Source of the DNA: Lysobacteraceae bacterium PS02065
Lineage (GTDB): Bacteria; Pseudomonadota; Gammaproteobacteria; Xanthomonadales; Rhodanobacteraceae
DNA length: 64,000 nucleotides
Assembly: GCA_029959555.1 (NCBI GenBank)
Contig: JASCPI010000005.1
Location: 1 to 64,000 of the forward strand
Direction: 5' to 3'
Shown here in pieces: positions 2,647-58,121 of the stretch. The position numbers and the translations under genes were made by a program. Position 1 is the stretch's first letter; each line of letters starts with the position of its first letter. Below the pieces are notes generated by a model. The model did not search any database, was not told the DNA's origin, and worked only from the letters and a program-made list of their open reading frames with translations.

Positions 2647-3072
2647 ATGGAGATGACCCTGGTTCTCGTCATGGCGCTCTCTGCCGGGACCCCTCCCGTG
2701 GTTTCGCCAGCGTCCATCTGTGTCGACGCGACCGGGAACGAGGCGAAGATGGTCACCTGGCTTCGCGGCGATTACCGTGTGGTCGGTTCACGCGGCGGTC
2801 GACCGTACGTCGGAGAGATCACGATGTCCGGCGCCGAAGATGCGGAGTCGCTGGATCTGACGGGCACGGTCGACGGCTCGCCGCGGAAAGGTTCAGTGCG
2901 TCATGTCCGCTGCGGCCTGGATCACGTACGGCAGTTGGCGGTCACTCTGGCAACGGGAGAAGCCCTGTACTGCGTACCTCACTACGATTACGACAACGCC
3001 AACCGCGCATCGTGTTCGAGTGGGCTCGGTAGTCAGGGCGGTGACCTCGAGTTGTGGGCACAGCGCTTCTAG
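2647..3072 (+). CDS. Exported hypothetical protein, paralogue of 24675-25172
   Basis: Protein of 141 residues with a short hydrophobic N-terminus (MTLVLVMALSAG) that could be a signal peptide. The rest aligns by eye with the protein at 24675: both have a G-Y-V-G start, RPY-x-G, a central cysteine, a second cysteine after the hydrophobic strand, a DN-xx-RASC block and a final GG-LE-W. Shared cysteines suggest a disulfide-bonded periplasmic protein (inference). No named family is recognised. AGGAG at about 2634 serves either GTG 2644 or ATG 2647; the ATG is chosen for spacing. Confidence 0.7.
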   Translation: MEMTLVLVMALSAGTPPVVSPASICVDATGNEAKMVTWLRGDYRVVGSRGGRPYVGEITMSGAEDAESLDLTGTVDGSPRKGSVRHVRCGLDHVRQLAVTLATGEALYCVPHYDYDNANRASCSSGLGSQGGDLELWAQRF

Positions 3073-3321
3073 CAGTGACCGTTCCATCCCGTTGGTGCCG
3101 CGGTTCGATGGCGGTGTCGACCTCGTGCCGATTCCGACGACCACGAAAACTTGCCGGTCGTTCCGTGAACTGGGAGGTGAGTAGCCCGAAGATTGGTCGC
3201 GCTGCCAGATCGAAGAGGCTATCCCGCAACTCCTGCGCTTCTCTTCCCTCAGGTACGCGTGGCGCTTCGCCTTGTTTGAAACCCGACGCTGTCAAAAATT
3301 TTCCGGTGGAGAGATGGAAGA

Positions 3322-49273: not shown

Positions 49274-49515
49274 GGACGTCTCCTGCGAGTGGACGTGTTC
49301 CCTGCGAAGCGGTCACGGGCACACGCCTCCTGCGCGCGCCCGCGGTGCGTCACCGACAGATCCGGTCGCAACCTGCCATCGCAGGGTCGACGGCGGGAAG
49401 GGCATGGACGCGCGAGGCACCGGGCGGGCTCGCCGCCGCAGGGAACACCCTCACGGACTCGGCTGGCAGCGCCGTCGAGTGTAGCGGCCGCGGCGCTCTC
49501 CGGGCCGGACCCGCG

Positions 49516-50202
49516 TCACGCTGCGTCGGGGTCGGGCCACTCGAAGCGGTAGCCGACGCCGTACACGGCCGAGATCGGGTCGTGGCCGACCTCGGCGATC
49601 TTGCGGCGCAGGTTCTTGACGTGGCTGTCGACGGTGCGGTCGCTGACCACGCGGTGGTCCTCGTAAAGGGCTTCGATGAGCTGGGCCCGCGAGAACACGC
49701 GACCGGGCTGCCCGGCGAGCTTGCGCAGCAGACGGAATTCGACCGGCGTGAGCACGAGCGGGCGCCCGCCGATGCGCGCCTCGAAGCGCTCCTCGTCGAG
49801 CACGACGGCGGCTTCCGGCGCGGGTGTCGTACCGGCGGCGCGGCGCAGCACGGCCTTCACGCGCGCGACGACCTCGCGTGGGCTGAACGGCTTGCAGATG
49901 TAGTCGTCTGCACCGAGCTCGAGGCCGAGCAGGCGGTCGATCTCCTCGACGCGCGCGGTGACCATGAGGATCGGCACGGCCGAGAACGTGCGCACGCCGC
50001 GGCAGATCGCGAGGCCGTCCTCGCCGGGCAACATGAGGTCGAGCAGGATCACGTCCGGCGCATGCGCGCGGATCCATTCGACGGCACCGCGACCGGTGTC
50101 GAGGACGTCGACACGGTAGCCCGACGCGGCGAGGTAGTCGCGCAGCAGCGCGGCGAGCTTGGGTTCGTCCTCGACGATGAGCACGTGCGGGGTCGGGGTC
50201 AT
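49516..50202 (-). CDS. OmpR-family response regulator, BaeR-like
   Basis: Protein of 228 residues. The receiver domain (1-120) has the acidic pair E11-D12, the phosphorylated D55 in LLDLMLPGEDG, the T in VTARVEEIDRLLGLE, and K in CKPFSPREV. The C-terminal winged-helix domain (about 135-225) has LTPVEFRLLRKLAGQPGRVFSR and VDSHVKNLRRKI. The sequence resembles BaeR of envelope-stress systems. Start codon ATG overlaps the upstream kinase stop, but here the regulator lies downstream of the kinase in the same leftward transcript. Confidence 0.9.
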   Translation of the reverse strand: MTPTPHVLIVEDEPKLAALLRDYLAASGYRVDVLDTGRGAVEWIRAHAPDVILLDLMLPGEDGLAICRGVRTFSAVPILMVTARVEEIDRLLGLELGADDYICKPFSPREVVARVKAVLRRAAGTTPAPEAAVVLDEERFEARIGGRPLVLTPVEFRLLRKLAGQPGRVFSRAQLIEALYEDHRVVSDRTVDSHVKNLRRKIAEVGHDPISAVYGVGYRFEWPDPDAA

Positions 50203-51647
50203 GGGGCAGCGTCCTGCAGGGGAAGGTGGATGGCGATCGCGAGCCCGCCGAGGGTGGAGGCACGAGCCTCGATGCGGCCCTCGTGCGCGTCGACGATCGC
50301 GCGGCAGATCGCCAGGCCGAGGCCGGCCCCGCCGGCGGCGCGGTTGCGCGAACGCTCGACGCGGAACAGGCGATCGAACAGCTGCGGCAACGCATCGGCC
50401 GGTACGCCGGGCGGCGTGTCCTCGACGACCAGGCGCACGTGACGGTCGCTCGCCGCGGCCAGGCTCACGCGCACGCGTCCCGGTGCATCGGTGTAGCGCA
50501 GCGTGTTGCCGAGCAGGTTGTCGACGAGCTGGGCGAGACGGCGCGCGTCGCCGCGCACGGGCGGCACGTCGCGAAGATCGTGCTCCAGCACGAGGCCGGC
50601 ATCGGCGAGGGCGTGGCGGTGCATGTCGAGCGCGTCGCGGACGAGCTCGGTCAGGTCGAGCGTCTCGAAGCGGTACTCGAGCGCGCCCGCATCGGCGAGG
50701 GCGAGCTGATAGAGATCCTCGACGAGCCCGCCGAGGCGGTCGCACTCCGCATGCAGCGACGCGAGCGCCTGCGGCGTCAGCGAACGCACGCCGTCCTGCA
50801 GCGCCTGGATCTCGCCGCGCAGGATGCTCAGCGGCGTGCGCAGCTCGTGTGCGATGTCGGTGCCCCAGCGGCGACGCGCCTCGCGATGCTGCTCGAGTGT
50901 GGTCGCCAGATGGTTGAAGTCGTGCGCGAGTGCGCCGAGCTCGTCGCGGCGCGACGACGCGATGCGACGTGCGTAATCGCCCTCGGCGAGCGCGCGCGTG
51001 CCGTCCGCGAGGGCGCGCACCGGTTCGAGCATCCAGCGCGCGAGTGCGAACGCGAGCAGCAGGGCGGCGGCGAGCACACCTGCGCCGGCGATCAGCGCGT
51101 TGCGGGTCTGCTCGCGCGCGAACGCGATGTCGGCACCGCCACGCAGCTGCGGCAGGGCGCCGAGGCGCAGCGTGCCGATGCTCACGTCGTCGAGGGTGAT
51201 CGCGATCCCCGGCGAGCGCTGCGGCAGTTCGGCGTTGCCGACGATGGGCAGGTCGTCGGCATCGACGAGCTGCAGCCGCGCCATGATGCCCGGAGGCACG
51301 AGGCGTGGAGGCGGTGCTCCGGGTACGACGATCGCCTCGCCGGTCGGGCCGGTGGGCGGCAGCGGAGGAGGCAAGGCCTCGCGGCGTGCCGCCTCGCGCG
51401 GATCCGGCTCGATCAGCATCGCGAAACGGCGTTCGTCGCCGCGCAGGAAATCCCAGCTGCCATGCTCGGCGTAGGCCGCGGCGATGCGGTTGGCGGCGGG
51501 CTGCAGGCGCTCGAGCGCGACTTCGTCGAGATAGCCGATGAAGCCGCGGCGGAAGTCGCGCTGTTGCCACGTCGCGAACCCGGCCAGCGCCAGGCCGCTC
51601 AGCGCGGCGATGACGAGGAACAGCCGTTGCCAGAGTCGCAGATGCAT
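50199..51647 (-). CDS. Sensor histidine kinase, BaeS-like
   Basis: Membrane kinase of 482 residues. First membrane helix about 8-24, a periplasmic loop to about 183 (with a proline-rich section), second helix 184-206, then HAMP (207-258). The phosphorylated H267 sits in DIAHELRTPLS; the N box reads NLLGNTLRYTD, and the ATP lid SRNRAAGGAGLGLAICR matches BaeS closely. The G1 box is EDTPPGV, with PP in place of the usual G-P, also as in BaeS-type kinases. Its stop overlaps the regulator start (ATGA). Its signal is unknown; envelope stress is inferred from the family and from the Spy-like neighbour. Confidence 0.9.
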   Translation of the reverse strand: MHLRLWQRLFLVIAALSGLALAGFATWQQRDFRRGFIGYLDEVALERLQPAANRIAAAYAEHGSWDFLRGDERRFAMLIEPDPREAARREALPPPLPPTGPTGEAIVVPGAPPPRLVPPGIMARLQLVDADDLPIVGNAELPQRSPGIAITLDDVSIGTLRLGALPQLRGGADIAFAREQTRNALIAGAGVLAAALLLAFALARWMLEPVRALADGTRALAEGDYARRIASSRRDELGALAHDFNHLATTLEQHREARRRWGTDIAHELRTPLSILRGEIQALQDGVRSLTPQALASLHAECDRLGGLVEDLYQLALADAGALEYRFETLDLTELVRDALDMHRHALADAGLVLEHDLRDVPPVRGDARRLAQLVDNLLGNTLRYTDAPGRVRVSLAAASDRHVRLVVEDTPPGVPADALPQLFDRLFRVERSRNRAAGGAGLGLAICRAIVDAHEGRIEARASTLGGLAIAIHLPLQDAAP

Positions 51648-51953
51648 GGAGGGGGTGGATTCGGAAGGATGGACACCTTAGCGCCTCGTGCCGGAACGGT
51701 CCGGGACTCCTTCATTTTTCCTTGATTCCTGCGACCGCGGAACATGTTTCTGGCCCATTCTCCACATTGAAACGACCCCGGGTACGCCGTCTCCGGAACA
51801 ACAGCGCAGCGTGCTACCGACCACGAGCACACCGTCCCCCGATACTGCGCGCTCCCGACGGAGATCAGGCAGCCCCCGGTACCCGGGGTCGTTTCCTTCC
51901 TGACCCCCGACAACGCGATCCGCGCCACGCCGTGGATCCACCGAGGAGATCCC
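51648..51953. promoter_or_regulatory. Divergent promoter region of the BaeS-like and Spy-like genes
   Basis: Three hundred bases with no gene. They carry the start regions of both divergent genes and a long inverted repeat (51769-51895). CGAGGAGAT at the end is the ribosome binding site of the + strand gene. A conserved -10/-35 pair could not be picked with confidence. Confidence 0.5.
51769..51895. repeat. 17-bp perfect inverted repeat in the divergent promoter region
   Basis: GAAACGACCCCGGGTAC at 51769-51785 and GTACCCGGGGTCGTTTC at 51879-51895 are exact reverse complements, 93 bp apart. Its place between a BaeS-like kinase gene and a periplasmic protein gene fits a pair of operators facing each other, but a short mobile palindromic element would look the same. 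Confidence 0.75.
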
Positions 51954-52373
51954 ATGAGCATGCACTTCCGCGCTTTCGCCGGGAGCGGCCTCCTGCTGGC
52001 CGCCGTCTGCGCCCACGCCCAGCCGGGCCCGCCGGGCCGTGACCACGGACCGCCGCCGCACGACGTCGTCGCGATCGCCGCCGGCCTCACGCCGGCCCAA
52101 CAGGTCGAGGTCCGCCGCATCGAGGCAGCGCGCCGCGACGCCCACGACGAGCTCGCCATCAAGCAGCGCGGCGAGCATCGCCGCCTCGACGAGGACGCCG
52201 ACAAGCGCCTGCGCAGCGCGCTCGGCGACGAGAGCTACCAGCGCTACCTCGAGGCGAAGGTGAAGCCCGCGCACGGTCCGCGCGAACTCGCCTCGCACGG
52301 CGGTGGTCCGGGCCCGCGCGGCGGTGACGGTCCCGCGCCGCGCCGCGAGACGCCGGCGCGCGACGAGGATTGA
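51954..52373 (+). CDS. Small periplasmic Spy/CpxP-like protein
   Basis: Protein of 139 residues with signal peptide (AFAGSGLLLAAVCAHA). The mature part has a helix AAGLTPAQQVEVRRIEAARRDAHDELAIKQ followed by a second long charged helix (DKRLRSALGDESYQRYLEAK), similar to the helical hairpin of Spy/CpxP periplasmic chaperones, but LTPxQ appears only once and the LTxxQ signature is partial. The C-terminal tail is Gly/Pro/Arg-rich and disordered. In E. coli the BaeSR system controls spy; here the gene is divergent from a BaeSR-like pair, which supports the guess. Confidence 0.65.
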   Translation: MSMHFRAFAGSGLLLAAVCAHAQPGPPGRDHGPPPHDVVAIAAGLTPAQQVEVRRIEAARRDAHDELAIKQRGEHRRLDEDADKRLRSALGDESYQRYLEAKVKPAHGPRELASHGGGPGPRGGDGPAPRRETPARDED

Positions 52374-52383
52374 CCGGCAGGAC

Positions 52384-52971
52384 CTAGACGCCCTCGCCCG
52401 CGAGCGGATGGGCGAGGGCGACGTAGCGCAGCGGCCCGCGCGCATCGAGGGCGTCGAACGGCCAGCAGGTCACGAGCACGAGGGTGTCGCCGTCCACCGA
52501 CGTGTCGATGCGTTCGCGGCGCGCGTCGACCACGCGCAGCGCATCGATGCGGTACGTGGTGACGCGCCCTCCGCGTTCGACCGCGACCCGGTCCCCGACG
52601 CGTGCCTCGCGCAGGAACGCGAAGTGCGTGTCGCGATGCGCACTCACCACGCTGAGCCCCCGTTCGCCCGGGAGCGCGCTCGACTCGGTCCAGCCGGGTC
52701 CGAACGCGAGCGTGCGTCCCGAATCGCCGCGCAGCACGATCGTATCGACGTCCAGGCGCGGCAGGCGAAGCCGCGCGACCGGCGAGGTGTCGGCCCACGG
52801 CCACGGTTTCGCTTCGGCCTCACCGGCTTGGACACGTTCCCAAGCACGCTGCAGCAGCACCTGCGCGAGCCAGGCCTTGGCCGGCAGCCAGCAGCCGTGC
52901 GCGAGTGCCGCGCTTCCCGACAAGGCCAGCACGAGGGCGACGAGCTGCAGCAGGCGGCGTGGACGTGTCAT
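52384..52971 (-). CDS. Class GN sortase
   Basis: Sortase of 195 residues of the proteobacterial dedicated type (TIGR03784-like). An N-terminal hydrophobic segment (LLQLVALVLALSGSAALA) anchors it, the catalytic triad is H112 (SAHRDTHFAFLR), C169 (TCWP) and R182 (LRYV). Sortases cut a C-terminal sorting signal of an exported protein and transfer it to an amino-group acceptor; for this Gram-negative type the acceptor is unknown. It is the last gene of a leftward operon with its target protein. An 11-bp inverted repeat (52389-52399 / 52410-52420) is built into its 3' end. Confidence 0.9.
   Translation of the reverse strand: MTRPRRLLQLVALVLALSGSAALAHGCWLPAKAWLAQVLLQRAWERVQAGEAEAKPWPWADTSPVARLRLPRLDVDTIVLRGDSGRTLAFGPGWTESSALPGERGLSVVSAHRDTHFAFLREARVGDRVAVERGGRVTTYRIDALRVVDARRERIDTSVDGDTLVLVTCWPFDALDARGPLRYVALAHPLAGEGV
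52389..52420 (-). terminator. Hairpin inside the 3' end of the sortase gene
   Basis: CGCCCTCGCCC and GGGCGAGGGCG are exact reverse complements around a 10-base loop, overlapping the last codons of the sortase. The convergent Spy-like gene ends 10 bp away, so it may stop transcription from either side. No T-run. Confidence 0.4.
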
Positions 52972-52981
52972 CGCCGCGTCC

Positions 52982-53161
52982 TCAGATCGCGACCCAGTCG
53001 TCGCCGCGGTCACGCGCATCGTCGCGCGGCCGCGGGACGGGATCCGTGCGAGGTGTCGCCGGCAACGGTGCGACGAGGGCCTCACCGCCGAGCCAGGTGT
53101 CGTCCTCGTAACGGACCGTGCGCGGGTGGCGGCGCAGGAACATCTTCGCGAGCGTGTTCAT
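52982..53161 (-). CDS. Small 59-residue ORF between sortase and target genes
   Basis: An ATG at 53161 with AGGAGA seven bases before it opens a 59-codon frame that ends 10 bp before the sortase start and begins 15 bp after the target stop. The product starts MNTLAKMFLRRHPRTVRYED, includes DDTWLGGEALVAPLPATPRT, and ends with an acidic/basic PRPRDDARDRGDDWVAI tail. No membrane helix or signal peptide. The excellent ribosome binding site and tight fit between two linked genes support translation. No family is recognised, and it is too short to be called by usual length limits. Confidence 0.65.
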   Translation of the reverse strand: MNTLAKMFLRRHPRTVRYEDDTWLGGEALVAPLPATPRTDPVPRPRDDARDRGDDWVAI

Positions 53162-53176
53162 GGAGTTCTCCTGGAA

Positions 53177-55156
53177 TCAGCCGTGGCGCACGCGGCGGGC
53201 CGCGAGCATCGTGAGCAGGGCGAGCGCGAGCAGGCCGAAGCCGAAAAGGCGTTGGGCGGGCGCGCCGGTCGCGGTCGCCGCGAACGCGACGCCGCCGGTC
53301 GGTGCGCCATTGGCGACGCGCGTCGAGGCGAGATCGTCCTCGAGCGGGCGCACGGGCGTCTTCTCGACCGCGACGAGGCTCGTGTAGCGCGTGACCAGGT
53401 GGTGATCGAGCGCGAGTGCGAGGATGCCTTCGCGCACCGCACCTGCATCCCCGCCGACATCGAGCGAACGTTCGAGATCGTCGATCTTGCGGCGTGCCCA
53501 CAGGCGTGCGATGCCGGTCGCGTGCCCTGCGCCGTCGAGGCGCTGGCTGACCTGCCAGGGCGCGAGATCGGCGTGCGCGCTCGCATGCAGCGCGCCGCTC
53601 GCAGCCGGCAGGCGCGCGACGACGAGCAGCGGCTCGCCCGCGTAGAGATCCGGAAGGCGGCTCGGATAGACCTCCGCCGCGCCGGGCCATGCGAGCGTGA
53701 CGTCGCGCAGCGCCGGTCGCTCGAGCTTGGTGAACAGCGTGCGCATGCGCTCGCTGACCTCGCCGAGGTCGGCGATCGTGATCGAGGTGCCGCGGCCGAG
53801 CGTGGCCGCGCGCTCGATGAAGACCGTGTTCGGCGCGCTGCCGATGCCGACCGGGAACAGGCGCGATTCGCGCAGGTCACGGTCGATCAGCGTGTAGAGG
53901 CGGCCCGCATCGTCGATCGCACCGTCGGTCGCGAACACGACCTGGCGCACGTAGCCGGCCGGCGGTGCACCGGCGAGTGCGCGTTCGAGCGCGGGCGCCA
54001 TCTCGGTGCCACCGGTCGCCTGCAGGCGAGCGACCCATTCGCGCGCGAGCTTCACGTCGCCCGGCTGCGCGGCGACCGGTGAATCGAACAGCGCCTCGGT
54101 GACGGAGTTGAACTGGATCACGTTGAAGCGGTCGCGCGGCGTCAGCGACGTCAGTGCGAGATCGAGCGCGGCGCGTGCCTGGCGGAGCGATTCGCCTTCC
54201 ATCGAGCCCGAGGTGTCGACGACGAGCACGAGCTCGCGCGGCAGCGGATTGGCGAGCTCCTCGCGCGGCATCAGCATGACCATCGCATAGGTCTCGCCAC
54301 CACGTTGCTCGGCGAGCACGGCGGCCGCGGGTTCGGCACCGAGCACCGGCGTCCATTCGAGCGTGAAGTCGCGGTCGGCGGGCACCTCGCCGTCGGCGAG
54401 CGTGACCGTGTGGCGACGGCCGTCGCGTGCGACCGAGATGCGGTGGCTCGCACTCTCGACGCGCGAGAGCTCCAGGCCGGCGTCGATCGCGATGTGCACG
54501 CCGACGCGCGGAGCCTGGCCGGCATGGGCATCGTCGGCGGAAGGGTTGCCCGTGGCGCCTTCGAGATCGGTCGACGCCTGCGTGTAGCGCGGCGTGTAGG
54601 TCAGCGGCAGCGCGAAGCGGAAGCGGCCGTCGCGGTAAGCGATCGACTGCCACCAGCGCACGTCGACCTCGACGGTCTCGCCCGGCGCGATGTTCGCCAC
54701 GGCGGTGCGGAAGAGCTGCGGGCGGTCCGCCTCGACCAGGGCGGCACGGCGTCCGCTCGCGGCGGCTTCGACGTACTCGGCGCGTGCCTGCTCCTTCTCG
54801 CGGATCTCGCCGACGACGACGCGCGAACCGATGCGCAGCTCGAGGTCGTGCACGGCGGCGCCGTCGGGCAGCGGCAGCAGGTACTGCGCCTCGACCCAGG
54901 CATCGGACGTGTTCGTGAAGCGCTGGCGGATGCGCGCCTCCGCGACGAGACCCGACACGGCGACGTCGACCGTGCTCGACAGCGCCACCATCTCCACCGG
55001 CTCGGCATCGCCGGCGCGCGCTTCGAGTACGCCGAAGCCGCTTTCGGCACGTGCACCGGCGACGAAGCCGAGCAGCAGGATCAGGATCGCGAACGTGGTG
55101 CGCAGCGGCTCGATGCCGCGATGCAGGTCGGTGTCGTTCTCGCGTGGCGCTTTCAT
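53177..55156 (-). CDS. Sortase target protein with VIT and vWA domains
   Basis: Protein of 659 residues with AAGGAG before the ATG. Signal peptide to about residue 37 (FAILILLLGFVAGARA), VIT domain about 45-180 (VDVAVSGLVAEARIRQRFTN; WVEAQYLLPLPDGA), and vWA domain about 310-480 with an intact metal site: DTSGS, GGTEM and ATDGAID. The C-terminus is a hydrophobic helix plus ARRVRHG. It belongs to the marine/proteobacterial sortase target group (TIGR03788-like). The cleavage motif, usually LPxTxT-like, appears as FAATATG just before the helix. Final location is the periplasmic or outer surface, after processing by the neighbouring sortase. Confidence 0.9.
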   Translation of the reverse strand: MKAPRENDTDLHRGIEPLRTTFAILILLLGFVAGARAESGFGVLEARAGDAEPVEMVALSSTVDVAVSGLVAEARIRQRFTNTSDAWVEAQYLLPLPDGAAVHDLELRIGSRVVVGEIREKEQARAEYVEAAASGRRAALVEADRPQLFRTAVANIAPGETVEVDVRWWQSIAYRDGRFRFALPLTYTPRYTQASTDLEGATGNPSADDAHAGQAPRVGVHIAIDAGLELSRVESASHRISVARDGRRHTVTLADGEVPADRDFTLEWTPVLGAEPAAAVLAEQRGGETYAMVMLMPREELANPLPRELVLVVDTSGSMEGESLRQARAALDLALTSLTPRDRFNVIQFNSVTEALFDSPVAAQPGDVKLAREWVARLQATGGTEMAPALERALAGAPPAGYVRQVVFATDGAIDDAGRLYTLIDRDLRESRLFPVGIGSAPNTVFIERAATLGRGTSITIADLGEVSERMRTLFTKLERPALRDVTLAWPGAAEVYPSRLPDLYAGEPLLVVARLPAASGALHASAHADLAPWQVSQRLDGAGHATGIARLWARRKIDDLERSLDVGGDAGAVREGILALALDHHLVTRYTSLVAVEKTPVRPLEDDLASTRVANGAPTGGVAFAATATGAPAQRLFGFGLLALALLTMLAARRVRHG

Positions 55157-55330
55157 GGCGGGCTCCTTCGTGTGTACGGCCTGCATTGCGAGGCCGCACG
55201 AAGGCTGCGTCGCGCCACGTCCGTGGCGTCGCGACGATCATTCATGGCGGTTTGCGGGCAATCGTGCACCGCGCATTGCGCGGTTCGCACGGCGCTGCGT
55301 AAGCTCGCCGCGCCCTGAAGGAGGATTCCC
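55157..55330. promoter_or_regulatory. Divergent promoter region of the sortase locus
   Basis: The 174 bp between the target operon and the two-component operon contain an exact direct repeat GCATTGCG at 55183-55190 and 55273-55280, near each start, and a CGCCAC-GTCC-GTGGCG inverted repeat at 55213-55228. They are candidates for binding of the adjacent response regulator. AAGGAGGA precedes the regulator start. Confidence 0.4.
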
Positions 55331-56020
55331 ATGCCGCGCAGCATCGCCATCGTCGAGGACGAACCGCTGATCCGCGCCAACTACGTCGAGGCGCTCACGC
55401 GCGTCGGCTACGAGGTGCGTGGCTACGGCTCGCGTCCCGAGGCCGAGGCCGCGTTCACGCAGCGCCTGCCCGAGCTCGTCATCATCGACGTCGGCCTCGG
55501 CGACGAACCCGAGGGCGGTTTCGACCTGTGCCGCTGGCTGCGTGCCAAGGCGACGACGCTGCCGATCCTGTTCCTGACCGCGCGCGATTCGGATTTCGAC
55601 GTGATCTCGGGCCTGCGCCTCGGCGCCGACGACTACCTCGCCAAGGACGTGTCGTTCCACCAGCTCGCCGCGCGCATCAGCGCACTGTTCCGTCGCGTCG
55701 ACGCGCTGCGCAAGCCCGCCCAGGCCGACAACGTGTTCGAGCAGGGCCCGCTGCGCCTCGAATCCGAACGCATGCGCATCACCTGGAACGGCGAGGACGT
55801 GCCGCTGACCGTGACCGAGTTCTGGATGGTCCACACCCTGGTGCGCTTCCCCGGGCACGTGAAGAGCCGCGAACAGCTCATGCGCGACGCCCAGGTGGTC
55901 GTCGACGACGCCACGATCACGTCGCACATCAAGCGCATCCGCAAGAAGTTCATCGCGATCGATCCCGCGTTCGACGCGATCGACACCGTGCACGGTGCAG
56001 GTTACCGGTGGAAGCCCTGA
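55331..56020 (+). CDS. Dedicated sortase system response regulator
   Basis: OmpR-type regulator of 229 residues with a leader AAGGAGGA. Receiver domain: E10-D11, phosphorylated D53 in VIIDVGLGDEPEGGFDLC, T in LTARDSDFDVISGLR, and K in LAKDVSFHQL. The C-terminal DNA-binding wing reads LTVTEFWMVHTLVRFPGHV and ITSHIKRIRKKFIAID. The insert GDEPEGG after the aspartate and the position next to the kinase and sortase match the dedicated regulator group TIGR03787. It likely controls the sortase operon and itself. Confidence 0.9.
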   Translation: MPRSIAIVEDEPLIRANYVEALTRVGYEVRGYGSRPEAEAAFTQRLPELVIIDVGLGDEPEGGFDLCRWLRAKATTLPILFLTARDSDFDVISGLRLGADDYLAKDVSFHQLAARISALFRRVDALRKPAQADNVFEQGPLRLESERMRITWNGEDVPLTVTEFWMVHTLVRFPGHVKSREQLMRDAQVVVDDATITSHIKRIRKKFIAIDPAFDAIDTVHGAGYRWKP

Positions 56021-56081: not shown

Positions 56082-58121
56082 ATGTCGCTGCGCCTCAAGC
56101 TGCTGCTCGTCGCGCTGTCGACGCTGAGCCTGCCGTGGGCCGGCTGGCAGTTCGTGCGCCAGACCGAAGCGCTGCTGCGGCAAGGTCAGGAACAGACCCT
56201 GCTCGCCTCGGCCAGCACGCTCGCCCGCGCGCTGGATGCGCTCGCGATCGAGCCCCCCGCACCGGGCACCGCGCTGTACGTGCACGAGCGCAAGGCGATC
56301 CTGCGCATCGACGGTTACGCCGACGACTGGCAGCCGTACAAGCCCTACGAGCAGGCGATCGGCCCCGCCGGCGAACCCGGCAAGCTGCGCGTCATGCTCG
56401 CCGAGGACCGCGAGTGGCTGTACCTGTTCGCCGAGGTGCGCGACGCGACGCGCGCGCGGGTCGATGCGCGCACGCTTGCGGTGGCCGCGAGCGACCACGT
56501 CGACCTGACCTTGCAGCGTGGCGACGAGTCGCGCCGCTACCGCATCGCGAGCGCCGCACCGGGGCGCTTCGAGGCGAACGCGTTCGAACCCGGCAGCGCC
56601 CTGCCCGACCGCCTCACGGGGGAGTGGCAGGAGGACGGATCGGGCTATCGCTTCGAGCTGCGCATCGCGCGGGTGGCTGCTCCCGAGCGGCTCGCCTTCA
56701 CCGTGCACGACAGCGCGGAAGCCACACCGTTCGAGGGCGAGCCGCTCGCATTGCTCGGCTACAGTGCCGATACGGGGCGCGTCCTCGCGCGCCTCGCGCC
56801 GCCGCACGTGCGCGTGAGCATGGTCTCGGCCGACGGCTGGGTGGTCGGCGCGGGCGGCAAGCTCGATGCGCAAGGCGCTCCCGGCGAGCAAGGCCTGTTC
56901 GCGCGCCTCGTCTACTGGCTCGTGCTCGCCACGCCGCCCGACGCGACGCGGACCTACAGCTCCTCCGATGCCGATCCGGCGCGCCTCGGCGATGCGGCGT
57001 TGCGTCCCGCGCTGGCGGGCGAGGATGCGACGAGCTGGCGCGTCGCCCCCGGTGATGCAGGCATCCTGCTCTCGGCCGCCGTGCCGCTGCAGCGCGACGG
57101 CGCGGTGCGCGGCGCGCTCGTCGTCGAACAGGCCAACCCGGCCGTGCCGGCGCTCGCCAACCGCGCGCTGTCGAGCCTGCTCGGCGCGAGCCTGCTCGCG
57201 TTCGGCGTCACCGCGGGACTGCTGCTCGTATTCGGCGGCATGCTGTCGTTGCGCATCCGCCGCCTGCGCGATGCCGCCGAGCGTGCGACGCAGGGCGGCG
57301 GTCGCCTCGCAGGAGCCTTGCCGCTCGTCGACTCGCCCGACGAGCTCGGCGACCTCGCGCGGAGCTTCGGACGCCTGCTCGACGAGGTCGGCGGCTACAC
57401 CGACTACCTGCGCACGCTCGCCTCGAAGCTCTCGCACGAGCTCAACACGCCGCTCGCGATCGTCAAGTCGTCGCTGGACAACCTCGATCACCACGTGCCC
57501 GGCGACGCTGCTCGAGCCTACCTCGGGCGCGCACGCGACGGCGCCGAACGTCTCGGCACGATCGTGCGCGCGATGAGCGAATCGAGCCGCATCGAACGCG
57601 CGATCTCGGGTGCCGAAGCCGAGGATGTCGACCTGCGCGTACTCGTCGCCGGCTGCGCGGACGGTTACCGCGCGGTGGCCGGCTCGCGCGACGTCCGCCT
57701 CGAAGCGCCCGTGGGCCCGATGCCGCTGCACGGTGCGCCGGACCTCGTCGCGCAGGCGCTCGACAAGCTGTTCGACAACGCACGCTCGTTCACGCCCGAG
57801 GGCGGTTGGATCCGGCTCGCGGTCGAACCTGCCGGCGGCGACGGCTGGTTCGTGCGCATGGCCAACCGCGGCCCGACCCTGCCCGAAGCGATGCAGGACC
57901 GCCTGTTCGACACGCTCGTGAGCGTGCGCGAGCCGCAGGCCCGCGGCGCGGGCGAGACGCCGCATCTCGGGCTCGGCCTCTACGTGGTCAAGCTCGTCGC
58001 CGAGCTGCATGCGGGCCGCGCCACGGCGCGCAACCTGCCCGCCGGCGACGGCGTGGAGTTCACCTTGCATCTGCGCGGCATGCCGCGTCGACGGATCGGG
58101 AGGGGAGATGCGCATGATTGA
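56082..58121 (+). CDS. Dedicated sortase system histidine kinase
   Basis: Kinase of 679 residues. First helix about 4-20, a large periplasmic sensor of about 340 residues, second helix about 364-388 (GASLLAFGVTAGLLLVFGGM), HAMP, then H452 in KLSHELNTPLAIVKSSLDNL, N box DKLFDNARSF and lid GLGLYVVKLV. The large sensor resembles carbohydrate-binding beta domains (VHERKAILRIDGYADDWQPY; DREWLYLFAEVRD), so a cell-surface glycan may be the signal (inference). It matches group TIGR03785 by context. The start is the first ATG in the conserved frame. Confidence 0.88.
   Translation: MSLRLKLLLVALSTLSLPWAGWQFVRQTEALLRQGQEQTLLASASTLARALDALAIEPPAPGTALYVHERKAILRIDGYADDWQPYKPYEQAIGPAGEPGKLRVMLAEDREWLYLFAEVRDATRARVDARTLAVAASDHVDLTLQRGDESRRYRIASAAPGRFEANAFEPGSALPDRLTGEWQEDGSGYRFELRIARVAAPERLAFTVHDSAEATPFEGEPLALLGYSADTGRVLARLAPPHVRVSMVSADGWVVGAGGKLDAQGAPGEQGLFARLVYWLVLATPPDATRTYSSSDADPARLGDAALRPALAGEDATSWRVAPGDAGILLSAAVPLQRDGAVRGALVVEQANPAVPALANRALSSLLGASLLAFGVTAGLLLVFGGMLSLRIRRLRDAAERATQGGGRLAGALPLVDSPDELGDLARSFGRLLDEVGGYTDYLRTLASKLSHELNTPLAIVKSSLDNLDHHVPGDAARAYLGRARDGAERLGTIVRAMSESSRIERAISGAEAEDVDLRVLVAGCADGYRAVAGSRDVRLEAPVGPMPLHGAPDLVAQALDKLFDNARSFTPEGGWIRLAVEPAGGDGWFVRMANRGPTLPEAMQDRLFDTLVSVREPQARGAGETPHLGLGLYVVKLVAELHAGRATARNLPAGDGVEFTLHLRGMPRRRIGRGDAHD

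Follow-up and report, generated by a model that had tools for sequence, protein, structure and literature searches.

Two small unannotated proteins accompany the regulator and kinase of the class GN sortase system in Rhodanobacteraceae

The nearest analogy for the two small proteins described here, S1 and S2, is with small-protein modulators of two-component systems such as MgrB, a small bitopic membrane protein with a cytosolic N-terminus and a periplasmic part that acts as a feedback inhibitor of PhoQ (PMC8404706). The analogy is one of setting alone: in both cases a tiny protein would be encoded in a two-component regulon, and S1, like MgrB, would be bitopic with its N-terminus in the cytosol. 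Of the two proteins only S1 has a hydrophobic span; it ends at that span, however, whereas MgrB continues into the periplasm, and S2 appears to be soluble. No homology of S1 or S2 to MgrB was found over cut-off in Pfam and NCBIfam. A further likeness is to KdpF-type membrane peptides, whose genes are transcribed together with those of a two-component system that controls them (PMC3618439); these too are short, operon-encoded membrane peptides that go with a two-component system, but KdpF is associated with a potassium transporter, and none was seen beside S1 and S2.

The genes that surround S2 are those of the proteobacterial dedicated sortase (class GN) system, which comprises a sortase (TIGR03784), its target (TIGR03788), a response regulator (TIGR03787), and a sensor kinase (TIGR03785); no use of the phrase "dedicated sortase system" was found in the open literature. 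All four genes are present in the window, by which we mean the whole 64-kb stretch of DNA that was analyzed, the regulator-kinase pair being transcribed away from the target-sortase pair, and all but the kinase pass the cut-offs of their families (Table 1). S1 and S2 match none of the system's family models. The target, whose sorting signal is FAATATG, is the one TIGR03788 match in its genome and adjoins the sortase. Beyond the sortase, at 49500-52373, the window encodes a BaeS-like two-component system and a small protein that weakly matches Metal_resist (CpxP-like), and the same neighbors follow the sortase in four other Dokdonella genomes (L082-L085).

Table 1. Features of the sortase locus in the window, in order of position
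Feature	Position	Strand	Basis
Class GN sortase (TIGR03784)	52384-52971	-	204.9 bits, cut-off 158.25
S2, 59-aa ORF	52982-53161	-	Translation, orthologues, other-genera profile
D-W-x-x-I, conserved C-terminal tail of S2 (residues 54-59)	52985-53002	-	C-terminal acidic-W motif statistics
WLGGEALV, conserved core of S2 (residues 23-30)	53072-53095	-	Alignment
AGGAGA, ribosome-binding site of S2	53167-53172	-	Sequence
Sortase target, VIT and VWA protein (TIGR03788)	53177-55156	-	632.6 bits, cut-off 551.65; Pfam VIT, VWA
S1-like segment, first 37 target residues (MKAPRENDTDLHRGIEPLRTTFAILILLLGFVAGARA)	55046-55156	-	S1 profile, E=7.7e-11
11-bp direct repeat TGCCCGCAAAC/CGCCATGAA, candidate response-regulator site	55241-55260	-	Conserved motif
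Response regulator (TIGR03787)	55331-56020	+	366 bits, cut-off 335.7
Sensor histidine kinase	56082-58121	+	Best match TIGR03785, 486.9 bits, below cut-off 612.2

The translation of S2, 52982-53161 (-), is MNTLAKMFLRRHPRTVRYEDDTWLGGEALVAPLPATPRTDPVPRPRDDARDRGDDWVAI. An earlier note on this DNA had placed a 59-codon ORF between target and sortase, and coordinates and family matches confirm that layout, its neighbors, the AGGAGA, and the spacing, which is 15 nt from the target stop (53177) to S2 and 10 nt from S2 to the sortase ATG (52971). Chance open frames are common in GC-rich DNA (94 ORFs of at least 40 aa overlap the 12-kb stretch around S2); length is thus weak evidence for a gene, and the case for S2 rests on conservation. 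An orthologue of 59-63 aa occupies the slot between target and sortase in 5/5 Dokdonella genomes with a sortase (61-63 aa in the 4/4 other than the window's own), and the Dokdonella consensus combines a core, W-L-G-G-E-A-x-V, with a C-terminal D-W-x-x-(L/I). Over the 15 rows of the S2 alignment G25, E27, A28, and W56 are invariant and W23 and L24 nearly so, while conservation outside the two motifs is poor. A profile built from other genera only, with no Dokdonella rows, matches the window ORF (E=2.6e-10) and has no further significant match in the six frames of the 64-kb window. These orthologues and this profile match bear out the suggestion that the ORF is an unannotated gene, and on this comparative evidence S2 is almost certainly real and conserved. 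It has no match over cut-off in Pfam or NCBIfam. With neither an evident signal peptide nor a membrane span, and with a low-confidence, unstructured AlphaFold model (mean pLDDT 59), S2 is probably a cytosolic, disordered protein that would act through short motifs.

A direct peptide search with S2 in named genomes found nothing; S2 is too divergent for single-sequence searches, and loci were therefore anchored on the response regulator instead, and it was from these loci that S1-S2 pairs were collected in the family. The idea that S2 is an insertion confined to Dokdonella was dropped, since the Dokdonella S2 profile also matched genomes of Tahibacter and of genus g26 in which S2 adjoins the regulator, including genomes without a sortase. 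In other genera S2 lies beside the regulator, on the opposite strand, instead of in the target-sortase slot. Regulator-anchored calls of S2 relied on its C-terminal acidic-W motif and were for that reason set against control ORFs: the motif occurs at the S2 position in 55/75 loci versus 1.0% of 2194 controls. Profile searches, which are independent of the motif, matched S2 in 24/28 regulator-positive genomes (15 of the 24 being training rows and 9 independent) and in 0/7 regulator-negative ones, across three genera. For S1 the corresponding counts are 20/20 regulator-positive genomes (19 outside training) and 1/20 called regulator-negative, and that single genome carries a regulator fragment together with S1 and S2. 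In the GTDB family, which from its named members Dokdonella and Tahibacter is taken to be Rhodanobacteraceae, the regulator is present in 175/198 genomes, the sortase in 18/198, and a target above the TIGR03788 cut-off in 18/196, so that genomes with the two-component half outnumber those with the sortase half by about ten to one. The presence of S2 does not depend on sortase or target, as many genomes carry it without either.

S1 is an unannotated peptide of 35-48 aa (about 38) with one membrane span, the consensus N-A-E-L...F-E-P-L-R...A-L-L-L-G-L, and no match over cut-off in Pfam or NCBIfam. It usually precedes S2 and starts some 175-200 nt from the regulator, divergent from it. Present in 75 family loci and missing from about nine, S1, with its strongly conserved E-P-x-R motif, adjoins TIGR03787 regulators in almost every genus of Rhodanobacteraceae (L068-L137, L186-L204); loci from the order's other families yielded no S1. 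In Dokdonella S1 is built into the target as its N-terminal signal segment, whereas in other genera it stands alone, and the window segment plausibly ends in a signal-peptidase site (ARA-ES). The intergenic region between regulator and S1 carries, in 70 loci and at a near-fixed distance from both genes, the motif TGCCcGCnnnT-tGCCAnA with 11-bp spacing. OmpR/PhoB-family regulators typically bind direct repeats of eleven bases, which makes it likely that the S1/S2 promoter is under the control of the adjacent regulator, the repeat itself being a consensus and a candidate site. S1 and S2 are thus the usual divergent neighbors of the TIGR03787 regulator and the TIGR03785-type kinase in Rhodanobacteraceae; they share the regulator's promoter region, follow its presence and absence, and persist without target and sortase.

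The codon-substitution check that had been proposed for the ORF gave, over eleven sortase-less pairs, changes at the three codon positions of 104/81/150, a third-position excess (p=1.6e-5), and a pN/pS of 0.50 when distant pairs were pooled or 0.36 in the six closest (Fisher p=1.3e-8), the p-values being approximate because some of the compared pairs share a member. For S1 the ratio is 0.32 over all sixteen pairs. These patterns indicate that S2 is under purifying selection in genomes without a sortase. The strongest single sign of its independence from the sortase is Dokdonella G122, an incomplete draft genome (87% complete), in which the S1 segment with the first 58 residues of the target is followed by S2 (L136, about 2830-3310), the regulator and kinase are retained, and neither the target body nor the sortase was found in the locus or by genome search; it is a natural deletion intermediate. 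On these grounds S2 very probably belongs with the two-component system whether or not a sortase is present.

What S2 does there is a matter of more tentative judgment. We favor, at slightly less than even confidence, the reading that it is a partner of the regulatory half and that S1 and S2 together tune the two-component system by feedback. Under such a scheme the conserved 11-bp repeats would let the regulator drive the S1/S2 operon, S1 would sit in the membrane, the disordered S2 would act through its WLGxEA core and its D-P-x-W-x-(P/V)-(L/I) tail, and the two might bind each other or the kinase or regulator, a binding by which the feedback would be exerted; target and sortase would then be optional output genes of the circuit. 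S1 and S2 are encoded with, and co-occur with, one two-component system, as a small-protein modulator would be. The chief rival is the reading of S1 and S2 as effectors, an envelope-stress output of the two-component system with its partner elsewhere (membrane, protease, or ribosome). The operon, promoter, and co-occurrence data fit it too, and the CpxP-like protein and BaeS-like kinase that follow the locus in the four Dokdonella neighbors compared provide an envelope-stress setting. However, a part of the circuit itself would account at least equally well for single copies that lie beside one regulator and strictly co-occur with it, and we regard the effector reading as possible but unlikely. 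In either case, the near-constant partner of these sortase-named regulators in the family is not a sortase but two unannotated small proteins; "sortase system response regulator" is a misleading name in genomes without one. The partnership changes what the two-component system may be expected to control, and S1 and S2 are a defined pair with which modulator can be tested against effector.

That S2 mainly serves the sortase or its target, for instance as an anchoring factor or as the substrate-side chaperone that the earlier note had mentioned, is a less favored reading, and copies without a sortase would then be remnants or repurposed. In favor are its location in the target-sortase slot of Dokdonella and Chiayiivirga, the almost exact co-occurrence of target and sortase in the family, and the presence, in other families of the order, of short ORFs of unclear kinship in the same slot without any S1. 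The same ORF does recur in related class GN loci, as had been asked of it: in those of Dokdonella and, on weaker sequence evidence, of Chiayiivirga (an ORF of ~65 aa, S2-like by motif). Outside the order, the other named class GN loci that were examined yielded no ORF with the terminal motif. Among 80 named GN sortase loci, in most of which target and sortase overlap or lie close together, only six have an ORF with the terminal motif, and these belong to Dokdonella, Tahibacter, Chiayiivirga, or near relatives; S2 is therefore not a general feature of such loci, as an accessory would be. Further, S2 is constrained where the sortase is missing, it outlasted target and sortase in G122, and it lacks an evident signal peptide, whereas the sites of action of target and sortase are extracytoplasmic. 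A main role as accessory is accordingly improbable. A coupling cistron or leader that carries ribosomes from target to sortase, its peptide functionless, would suit the 15- and 10-bp gaps and the good ribosome-binding sites, but the unrelated leader peptide once proposed is contradicted by protein motifs that are conserved and by codon-level constraint where no sortase follows, and we consider it very improbable. Least credible is a toxin/antidote-like pair of hydrophobic peptide and cytosolic partner: S1 resembles small hydrophobic toxins in size and topology, but S1 and S2 are nearly always single copy, go with one regulator in 20/20 genomes, and in Dokdonella S1 is a signal segment.

The feedback reading can be taken further, to an undescribed module of S1, S2, kinase, and regulator in which the membrane peptide and a secreted protein's signal peptide can stand in for one another. 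The S1 segment of the target would let the Dokdonella kinase sense directly that the target is being made or exported; in most relatives the target body would be gone and the freed signal peptide would persist as a regulator. We hold this fuller proposal to be doubtful. In g12, g18, and most Tahibacter, S1-S2-target-sortase run divergently from the regulator; in the g26 genome G044 the order is regulator, then target-sortase-S1-S2; and in Dokdonella S1 is fused to the target and followed by S2 and sortase. A sortase tree groups the sortases of f1, f2, and f3 (support 94/83, short of full), which is consistent with, but not decisive for, an old presence of the sortase and its repeated loss in the family. 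Short ORFs also occupy the target-sortase slot in other genomes of f2 and f3. Against the S2 profile the best of the small ORFs from other families is L209 (E=0.0088), one of two in Chiayiivirga, and the others are not significant, so that kinship of the f2 and f3 ORFs with S2 is weakly supported. In g61 of f2 (L058, L303-L305, L046, L053, L054) the target-sortase slot holds a conserved ORF of ~60 aa, M-V-L-I-V-E...A-L-R-H-M-H-W, without the S2 motifs. Given the loci outside the family and the sortase tree, S1 may either have begun as a signal peptide and been released, or have been a free peptide that was recruited as one. The fused form and the G122 intermediate make this evolutionary link between signal peptide and free membrane peptide testable.

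Some genomes with the regulator lack S2 or carry an eroded copy (e.g., G004, G087, L095-L103), and in these it is dispensable. In loci with an eroded S2 frame (L127, L191, L195, L196, L198, L199, L202) a stretch like TGCCGTGGAAGGCATGG is conserved at the DNA level just after S1, perhaps as a shortened S2, perhaps as a different element; a structured RNA was considered for the S2 region of the genera with eroded ORFs and set aside, there being no Rfam match. In L095, L096, L100, L101, and L103, which have no recognizable S2, S1 reads E-P-F-R in place of the E-P-L-R of L088-L094 and L098, a change that might reflect a lost contact between S1 and S2.
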